Below, piece by piece: positions 13,879 to 17,013 of a stretch of DNA of 64,000 nucleotides. Positions within the stretch are counted from its first letter, which is position 1; the number at the start of each line of letters is the position of its first letter. The stretch spans positions 15,549,858 through 15,613,857 of the forward strand of contig NC_045144.1 in the NCBI RefSeq assembly GCF_008831285.2. The letters are read 5' to 3'. The position numbers and the translations under genes are program-made. Below the pieces are notes generated by a model. That model was given only the letters and a program-made list of their open reading frames with translations. It was not told the origin of the DNA and did not search any database. The DNA comes from Nymphaea colorata. Its lineage: Eukaryota > Streptophyta > Magnoliopsida > Nymphaeales > Nymphaeaceae.

Positions 13879-16800
13879 TTAGAGGTCGTTTGATGGCTGC
13901 AGGACACGCAGAACAGGATACACGTAACCTCTTTAACCAAATGTTTCTTTGTTCCATTCCGTTCAGAGCTAACCCTCAGAATAGAACAGACACAACTCTT
14001 CCCATCCCCACCCCCAACGACCACTAGCCCCGACCTCGAGCCCTCAACGCCATCGTCTTTCTCTCGTTCTCCTCCATCTCCGCCTCCATCTTTGCTTTCT
14101 TTCTCCTCTGTCTCTTTGCCCCCGAGTTGCCTTTCTCCTCGATCTTCGCCCCCATCTCCACCATGAGCTGCCCTAGCCCTTCCTGTTTCTCTCCTTCTCC
14201 TTCGTCTCTGTGGGAGGGTGACCACCGGATAGAGTATTCGTTTCCTTTTGCAGCATCGCTTGCAGCTCATCAGCAGGGCATCTTCCAGTGGCTCCTGAGC
14301 GGCGGCTTGTGGTGGTGATAGGTAAATGCAATCTCTCTCTCTCTGCTCGTTTTTTTCGCCCCCTGTTTCTCCCTCAGCCCACTTTCAACACACATTTCCG
14401 GTGGCGACAGAGGGGTTTTATGGTGTTCTTCTTCTTCGTGAACCGACACAACATCTCCTACAAGCATTGCAGAAAACTTAAGCTCTTGAACCCCGATGCT
14501 GCATGTTCTCCCTCTTTTCCTTCCCTCTTTGGCGTCTTCTTTGTCCTCTTGTGGTTCAAGGGTTTTCTATGAAGAGAGATGTAGATTTGTTTGAAAGGGG
14601 ATACCCAATGAGGCATGGTTGGAGAAAAAAAATACTATTTTCAGCTCGGTTGCATTCCTCACAGTTCAGCAACAAAGCAACACACTATCCCTACCCATTC
14701 TAGAGTTTTAGGTGCCATGATCACCATAAGAATAAGACCACGTGTGTCAATTTTTTGCTGCCGCCATCAAACTCAAGTTCCAATTCTTGTGCATTTTTGC
14801 CAGTCACTGCACTTTGAAATGAACCTTTCTTATTAGATAAGCATTAGCCATTCTAGTAACTGTCTGTTGGTAGTCCTTTCTTCCTTTCTTTGTTCTTTCA
14901 CAATTTATTTCTTTCATAAACTTTCGAGATTTTGTCTTTGTTCTTCATCTGAAGAGTATAAATATGAGGGAAGTTGAGTCTTTGTGTACTCTGGTAGGTG
15001 CCCCTGTAAAAGAAAATGTGCCAATCCTTGTTCTTTTTAGTTCTTTGCTTTGTTGCTTGGTGCTGTATGCAACTTGCAACTTGTAGGGGCTAAGAGACAT
15101 GCCTTCAATCCAGAAGAGAAACGAGTGAATCGAGATGGCCTCAAGAACTTGGTTGTAGACTTGCTACGGCAGCCTCAGGTGGGTTTCCAGCAGTATGCAG
15201 GTTATGTGACTGTAGATGAGAAGCATGGGAGGGAGCTTTCCTATAGGTTCTTCACGGCTGCCCGGCACCAAAGGAGAGAAACCTTTGGTGCTATGGTTAA
15301 ATGGAGGTAGTGCTCTTCATGCCATTTTCATCAACTTACATCTTGAAAACTGTCAAATTTTATGGAGAGTTGTGACATCAAGCATATAAATCGTGCCAAA
15401 TTATTGGCCTCAATGGAAACTAAAGTAGTTATGAATACAGGGCATACAAAAAACTGTTTTCTAGTTATACATTTCTGTCGTATGTATAGATGAGGACTAA
15501 GACATGATGATTTGCAGATCAGTGCCTATATAAGCTACAAAGACACCAATCGTTTTCATATATGCCAATTGTCTGCTTAATAGTTACTACAGTAGCAAAG
15601 TATTTGACACGGAATATCACAATATTAAGCTAGAGAGAGATTGTTTGTCATACAAATTTATTCTTTATTACTTTTCTTAATGAAATTACGTGTGTGAACA
15701 ACAGCCAATGACACTTACACATTTCTGCATAAGTGGTTCAAGAAATTCCGGGAATACAGAAATCGCAGCTTCTACATTGCAGGAGAGAGCTATCCAGGTA
15801 CTTATAAGACATCCTGTAACTCATGCATTTATCCAGAGGTAATTTAACTTTCCAGTTTGACCTTGTAAAAGTATATGAAACTCTGTCAGAACGTGCATGT
15901 GGACCTTGTCATGAGCTAGAAGTCGATAAGATTGCATCCTCGATCTGGACCCAGTACGATTAAGATCTGCCAGGCCAACCTGCTGAATATAATTGCAGTT
16001 TATGTTTTCCAATATCTTTCTATGGTTATGCTATAGGTTTTCATTTTGAAATAAATGAAAAGTAATCTTGATAGATCACCAAATGACCAAATAATTCTTT
16101 TCAAACTTATCATGAAACGTCGGTGAAAGAATAACTGTGGGAAACTGGTTGCATCTGCAGGGAAGTATGTTCCAGAATTGGCAGAACTTATCTATCACAC
16201 GAACAAGGATCCGTCTTTATATATTAACCTTAAGGGCTTCTTGGTATGTTTCTTTTTAACAGAAGATCACTCTTCATTTTTCTGTTAAATTCCTTTTGAG
16301 ATATTTCGATGTTGAAAGGTACTGGTTTGAAATGGAATCAGTTGGAAAATCCAGAGACTTCAGATGCAGAGGATTGGCAAGGCATGGTGGATTATGCGTG
16401 GAGCCATGCGGTGGTCTCATATGAAACATACAGAATCATCAAAGAAACATGTGACTTCAACAGTAGCAAAACATGGAGCAACGCAAACATGGAGCAACGA
16501 GGAGTGCAATAAGTCTGTGCAAGAGATCCTGCAGCAATATTTTCTTTGTTGTGTTGAAAAATTAAAGCTAGATTTTCAAATTCCATGTAATGTTGAAAAA
16601 AGCATAGTTTAAAAAAGATACATTTTGAAGATATCAAATATCGATTAAGACATAACCTGATGAAAACCAAATTCCTTCTTATTACTGCATGTTTGTGTGT
16701 TTTCTATGCCAGTAATTTGAACAAAAACAAACACTAGACAAGACAGACAGAACATGCAGAACTAACCATAAAAGACACAAATATCGGACAGAACGGATAG

Positions 16801-17013
16801 ATCAGACAAAACAAAAACAAACATCAAACAGAACGTACAAAACAAACAGAACATACACACAAAACAAACGCCGGACAAAAAAAACGTAGTGTTCTGTTCC
16901 TAAAATCATCAAATGGTGGACAAGGAACATCATTGTCCATACAACACGACAGTAGTGTAATGGACAGGACGTCGTGTCTGTCTTGTCCCAATGAACAATC
17001 AAACGACCTCTTA
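13879..17013. mobile_element. PIF/Harbinger-like element carrying captured gene fragments (Pack-type)
   Basis: The body 13,882-17,010 (3,129 bp) has terminal inverted repeats: left GAGGTCGTTTGATGG, right CAATCAAACGACCTC, 13 bases matching exactly. It is flanked by TTA on both sides (13,879-13,881 and 17,011-17,013), the 3-bp TWA-type duplication of PIF/Harbinger and Tourist elements, and the end sequence resembles theirs. Copy B has no element at the matching place (near 34,890), only flank containing a single TTA. The inner right end repeats GACAGAAC-like words. No transposase is seen; instead it holds parts of a serine carboxypeptidase-like gene. The left third (13,900-15,050) is CT-rich and unidentified. 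Confidence 0.85.
15080..16545 (+). pseudogene. broken serine carboxypeptidase-like (SCPL) gene fragment inside the element
   Basis: Four blocks match plant serine carboxypeptidases. Block 1, about 15,080-15,303: QQYAGYVTVDEKHGREL, then a one-base frame change before KPLVLWLNGG. Block 2, 15,705-15,797: [11 protein letters not shown] and [10 protein letters not shown], with the nucleophile serine. Block 3, 16,161-16,243: GKYVPELAELIYHTNK and INLKGFL. Block 4, about 16,342-16,545: NPETSDAEDWQGMVDYAWSHA and WSNEECNKSVQEIL. Blocks 2 and 3 join in phase across a GT...AG intron. The part between the glycine pair and block 2, which should hold the oxyanion-hole motif, is missing, as are the catalytic Asp and His of the C-terminal half. 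A 15-bp word is repeated near 16,470-16,500. It cannot encode a working peptidase. Confidence 0.85.

Follow-up and report, generated by a model that had tools for sequence, protein, structure and literature searches.

A Pack-PIF transposon candidate carrying an intron-containing piece of a serine carboxypeptidase gene in one copy of a tandem duplication

Analysis of the window (the whole 64,000-nt stretch of DNA under study) showed a 3,129-bp element at positions 13882-17010 which is very probably a non-autonomous PIF/Harbinger transposon, that is, a Pack-PIF, whose interior was replaced by a stretch of a carboxypeptidase gene located on C11. The features of the element are collected in Table 1. 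The case is a closely resolved one, as both ends, the target-site duplication (TSD), an element-free duplicate of the site, the parent gene, both joints, and sister elements with other cargo are all available for comparison.

Table 1 Features of the element and of its counterpart site, in window positions
Feature	Positions	Strand	Basis or remark
Left TSD, TTA	13879..13881	.	Direct reading
Left terminal inverted repeat (TIR), GAGGTCGTTTGAT	13882..13894	+	Exact; TIR with ≤2 mismatches in 26/29 related left-end loci
Family-own 5′ part, without parent-gene match	13882..14641	+	Shared with relatives
Left joint, element/captured DNA, shared CAG	14639..14642	.	Comparison with C3 element and parent
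Captured C11 carboxypeptidase segment, introns kept	14642..16717	+	Sense orientation; alignment to parent
First coding exon remnant, start codon retained	15016..15308	+	7-bp insertion and 2-bp deletion versus parent
Deletion point, 483 bp of parent absent (exons 2 and 3)	15627..15628	.	Alignment to parent
Exon with GESYPG (parent GESYAG)	15704..15799	+	PF00450, E = 1.1e-10
Next carboxypeptidase exon	16163..16243	+	PF00450 sub-threshold, E = 0.022
Further exon remnant (NPETSDAEDWQGMV region), truncated versus parent	16345..16512	+	Alignment to parent
Right joint, captured/element DNA, shared TT	16715..16719	.	Right-end alignment
Family-own 3′ end	16718..17010	+	Recurs across genome
Right TIR	16998..17010	-	Exact; TIR with ≤2 mismatches in 28/29 related right-end loci
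Right TSD, TTA	17011..17013	.	Direct reading
Element-free counterpart site in copy B	34880..34900	+	8 bases more before TTA than in copy A

An earlier reading of the sequence alone had described inverted ends and a TTA duplication, and both were borne out. The 13-nt TIRs are exact, the 3-bp TTA is the TSD, and nothing else is repeated on both sides of the element. Single ends mean little by themselves because the 13-mer occurs in the window at chance level (16 found versus 17.5 expected at ≤3 mismatches). When the window was scanned for exact 13-nt inverted pairs spaced 0.5 to 8 kb apart, only 1 of the 228 pairs had matching TTA/TAA flanks, and this pair was the element.

Other elements with these ends, which the sequence-only reading had proposed to look for, were abundant in the genome. 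The left end (13882-14345) gave 142 candidate places and the right end (16718-17010) gave 340, with 40 scored in each search; the 39 scored right-end places besides the window were 79-88% identical over at least 220 of the 293 bases. Among the 29 left-end loci examined (one of which has its TIR outside the scanned stretch), 23 had a TIR with no more than one mismatch, and TAA or TTA adjoined it in 19 of the 23. The corresponding numbers for the 29 right-end loci were 27 and 24, and the counts for both ends include some near-identical tandem copies. Positions 13882-14616 are common to two full-length relatives, and homology to a relative on C3 runs to about 14641, the last dozen bases being imperfect. 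An unusual arrangement was seen on C13 at about 12407.7-12418.9 kb, where four copies of the family element (L013, L014, L016, and L018) lie head to tail about 3.57 kb apart, and three of the junctions show a right TIR, one TAA, and then a left TIR. L035 has a junction of a similar kind, but with TTA.

The family can be connected to a transposase. Autonomous members of the PIF/Harbinger superfamily carry a transposase and a second, Myb-like ORF1. A search with the DDE_Tnp_4 profile (PF13359) gave 307 candidates in the genome, 150 of which were scored as matches, and comparison of the tables by eye placed such a match 0.9-1.3 kb upstream, on the same strand, of at least 9 of the 40 scored right ends. 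Two decayed relatives show the same association from the left side. On C5, a transposase match lies in an element that has the left module and a right TIR free of mismatches; 4 mismatches are present in the left TIR, and the flanking triplets differ (TGA and TAA). On C3, the left module, with 3 mismatches in its TIR, precedes a transposase match interrupted by two stops, and the fetched C3 stretch yielded no right end. Because the right end lies near DDE_Tnp_4 matches at these nine or more places and the left module accompanies transposase matches on C5 and C3, the superfamily assignment was tested here, and the TTA/TAA TSD, the shared TIRs, and the DDE_Tnp_4 matches all point to PIF/Harbinger, in agreement with the identity first suggested. 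The window element itself contains no recognized piece of a transposase, and it does contain a PF00450 exon.

The parent of this cargo was sought by comparing window positions 15080-16545 with the window's own assembly (407.8 Mb, 783 contigs). Apart from the window itself, the only candidate was a place on C11 with 86-87% identity. The captured segment corresponds to C11:7440591-7443721 on the minus strand and aligns in four blocks (14642-14869, 14871-15627, 15628-16540, and 16559-16717; K 0.060-0.087). When 20 kb of C11 around the parent was compared with positions 13500-17400, nothing matched beyond 14642-16717, and the parent homology lies inside the inverted repeats. The exons that are absent from the cargo (those with GPGCSS and ESPVGVGFSYS) are present in the C11 gene, which also runs past the limit of the captured segment, with exons containing SGDTDGRVPV and GAGHAVP, corresponding to the Asp and His regions in this family of peptidases. 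In Pfam, four pieces of the gene match PF00450, at profile positions 1-49, 49-84, 268-308, and 379-420 of 420. These features support the serine carboxypeptidase gene on C11 as the parent whose existence had been anticipated.

The captured stretch begins ahead of the start codon and covers approximately the first half of the coding sequence. Its carboxypeptidase exons are real, and one of them holds the catalytic-serine motif as GESYPG. Its introns are retained and align to the introns of the C11 parent, which agrees with the proposal that the gene was captured as genomic DNA. The piece is broken. Its first coding exon is frameshifted. Besides exons 2 and 3, the cargo is missing 462 bp that precede the start codon in the parent, either deleted here or gained by the parent, and 160 bp spanning the end of a later exon and the sequence beyond it. 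No sign of protein-level constraint on the cargo was seen in either exon versus intron divergence or codon changes, a small sample: exons differ from the parent by 6.7, 6.1, and 9.9% and introns by 5.9, 9.6, and 4.9%, and the changed codons comprise 10 synonymous and 21 replacement changes. Since the exons diverge about as fast as the introns, the cargo looks dead, and a carboxypeptidase product would not be expected from it.

Two other explanations of this structure were considered, and each is extremely improbable. One is an ordinary, broken gene duplicate of a carboxypeptidase, flanked by inverted repeats that arose by chance. This would fit the finding of the gene piece nowhere but in the window and the parent, but it is contradicted by the family evidence: parent homology stops at both family-own ends, and these ends recur at the many candidate places given above, mostly with the TIR and TTA/TAA among the loci examined. 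The other is capture by a different class of element. Gene capture in plants is better known from Pack-MULEs, Helitrons, and retrocopies, but DDE_Tnp_4 matches lie beside related ends, and each of the three is opposed by a particular feature. MULEs make a TSD of 9-11 bp, so the 3-bp TTA excludes a Pack-MULE; the presence of TIRs excludes a Helitron, and the retained introns exclude a retrocopy.

The family captured host DNA more than once, as seen from the carboxypeptidase, kinase, and mosaic interiors found between its ends. The best examples are two full-length elements, C9:7776069-7779281 (3,213 bp) and C14:8886913-8890100 (3,188 bp), which have exact TIRs, TTA TSDs, and the family right end, and whose left module is 76.6-77.5% identical to the window over 13939-14616. 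The two are 93% alike (K 0.032), with similarity stopping within 5 bp of the element, and their interiors hold receptor-like-kinase pieces in sense orientation with introns kept. Single-exon Pfam matches for this cargo were below every cut-off (Pkinase, E = 0.06; ABC1, E = 0.044); therefore, its identification comes from the parent at C6:1391000-1397500, the exons of which are, by eye, malectin-like, leucine-rich-repeat, and kinase. The K between kinase cargo and parent, 0.074, is close to that of the carboxypeptidase cargo. A third copy of the kinase cargo, 1,026 bases long and 99% identical, lies at C5:5106111. On C6, a tandem cluster of receptor-like kinase genes occupies about 1339-1479 kb and is the likely source of the kinase cargo. 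Two short family elements of about 1.7-1.8 kb, L015 and L025 (C9:14842 kb and C7:15471 kb), have a different, mosaic interior; pieces of the C9:14842 interior are 95% like C10:17922658 and 91% like C3:24930661, and one comes from a dispersed repeat. At 12 loci chosen to represent the other interior types, a Pfam search of 139 reading frames, all lying no more than about 1.4 kb from the left module, returned a single marginal match, to COQ9 (E = 0.0075). The carboxypeptidase element was found once in the genome, so the evidence that it moved once the cargo was aboard consists of the TSD and the absence of the element from copy B.

The joints, at about 14641 and 16717, show 2-3 nt of microhomology, and no filler was seen at either. 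Because the joints are clean, the parent still holds the captured segment, and no recognizable PIF end is present in the 20 kb around it, we infer that copying during gap repair is the most likely mechanism of capture. A PIF element would have excised and left a gap for repair, and the repair copying would have switched into the C11 carboxypeptidase locus at short microhomologies. One genomic stretch, from upstream of the start codon into the first part of the coding region, would thereby have replaced the interior of the family element; some parts of the captured stretch are now absent. With its ends intact, the chimera would then have been mobilized in trans by the family transposase and have landed at a TTA in copy A.

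The finished element does not by itself reveal the capture route, and fusion of two insertions would yield similar joints. According to that scenario, two PIF copies flanked the carboxypeptidase gene and lost their inner ends, and the outer ends moved everything between them, an outcome that would likewise leave native ends on either side. The available text of PMC8903248 proposes this route for Pack-TYPE elements, with a Pack-PIF example. In the 20 kb around the C11 parent, however, there was no TIR with ≤2 mismatches and no similarity to the left or right module (E 1e-5), an argument that is weak since such traces decay. The parent also keeps the whole segment, which cut-and-paste movement would have removed unless repaired from the sister copy; this, too, weighs little. 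Fusion has an appreciable chance of being correct, and repair switching is still favored.

The left breakpoints of the two captures lie close together, at 14641 for the carboxypeptidase element and at about 14610-14616 for the kinase elements, that is, within about 30 bp in a 5′ module of about 750 bp. A common right breakpoint was ruled out by multiple alignment, which placed the kinase joint about 45 bp closer to the end; only the left breakpoints are therefore close. One might imagine this PIF subfamily as a cassette whose 5′ module (about 730-760 bp) and 3′ end are fixed and into which different host genes were loaded repeatedly, in sense orientation and at a similar left breakpoint. This would mean that the choice of breakpoints in gene capture is nonrandom. 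The idea is rather doubtful, as it is built on two captures, and the joins in L015 and L025 are elsewhere. An exon trap was also considered and no claim is made for it: a splice-donor motif was present in the 5′ module in 4 of 31 cases compared to 1 of 31 control stretches, with C3 scanned in the wrong stretch.

The element sits in copy A of a tandem duplication (A, 8409-25989; B, 26001-55620), and copy B has no match to it, either in the window comparison or in the genome search. The sequence-only reading had described an uninterrupted site in copy B and an insertion later than the segmental duplication. As to the site, the element is indeed absent, but the site is not a clean empty one. Copy A reads AAAGGC-T-TTA-element-TTA-AGTACC and copy B, from 34880, reads AAAGGC-CCTACACAC-TTA-GGTACC, with a single TTA and, immediately to its left, 8 additional bases. 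As to the timing, insertion into copy A after the duplication is likely but not proven, given these extra bases and given that copies A and B were the only matches in a genome search using the sequence to the left of the insertion, with no third copy to polarize the site.

The opposite order, in which the element was already present before the duplication and copy B lost it by excision, leaving CTA-CACAC-TTA as a scar, is unlikely. The 8 extra bases exactly adjoin the TTA and can be parsed as two TTA-like triplets separated by 5 bases, as a scar would be; yet they are unlike the element ends, and further A-B indels occur near the insertion site. Divergence values bear on the order as well. In the flanks adjoining the element, K between A and B is 0.139 and 0.134, about twice the cargo-parent K, and for this reason insertion is favored. 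Some A-B stretches elsewhere have a K of only 0.03-0.06, which is not older than the capture; compared with the flanks, they indicate that the divergence clock is not uniform. More broadly, A-B divergence is higher around the insertion (13186-19388 versus 34248-37182; K 0.09-0.25) than elsewhere, possibly as a result of patchy homogenization.

Other features of the two copies were noted by eye. Copy B contains two Copia-type retrotransposons (37183-42606 and 46230-51471), which probably inserted recently, since they have long open frames and near-identical end repeats (249 nt at 100% and 286 nt at 99.3%). Paired open frames at 9798-10712 (A) and 31090-32067 (B) are B3-domain-like and differ in the length of a glutamine/lysine-rich repeat.

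With these comparisons at hand, gene capture by a PIF family becomes testable in one genome, including the repair route behind the joints, as do transcription of cargo-bearing PIF elements and small RNAs directed against the parent gene. Pack-MULEs are TIR elements that carry genomic gene fragments, introns included. The window element resembles them in both respects and differs in its superfamily, as seen from the 3-bp TSD and from the PIF-type transposase matches that adjoin related ends. The view that such capture by PIF elements is less often described needs tempering, as this kind of event is already in print. In the text available for Benjak et al. 2008 (PMC2528002), grapevine PIF elements with transduplicated exons and introns are reported, and in that for Gisby and Catoni 2022 (PMC8903248), Pack-PIFs are named and counted in maize and rice. 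A 2026 review (PMC13317346), in its accessible part, sets out the fusion route and leaves room for an alternative yet to be discovered. In a literature search of available text, the term Pack-PIF was found only in the 2022 paper (PMC8903248), and no publication was found that joins capture of a carboxypeptidase gene fragment with a Harbinger transposon. As far as those accessible parts go, Pifvine-3 of grapevine (PMC2528002) is similar in being a PIF element with transduplicated genomic sequence containing exons and introns; there, it forms an extra 5′ region beside ORF1 and the transposase, whereas here the cargo fills the interior and no transposase match is present. The maize and rice Pack-PIFs (PMC8903248), as presented there, share with the window element the PIF/Harbinger affiliation, a TSD that is mostly TTA/TAA, pieces of host genes, and varied cargo within a family. 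The cargo pieces in the worked example of that paper are 163 bp and 58 bp, compared to 2.1 kb of exons and introns here, and the window element stands as a clear new and unusually well-resolved Pack-PIF.
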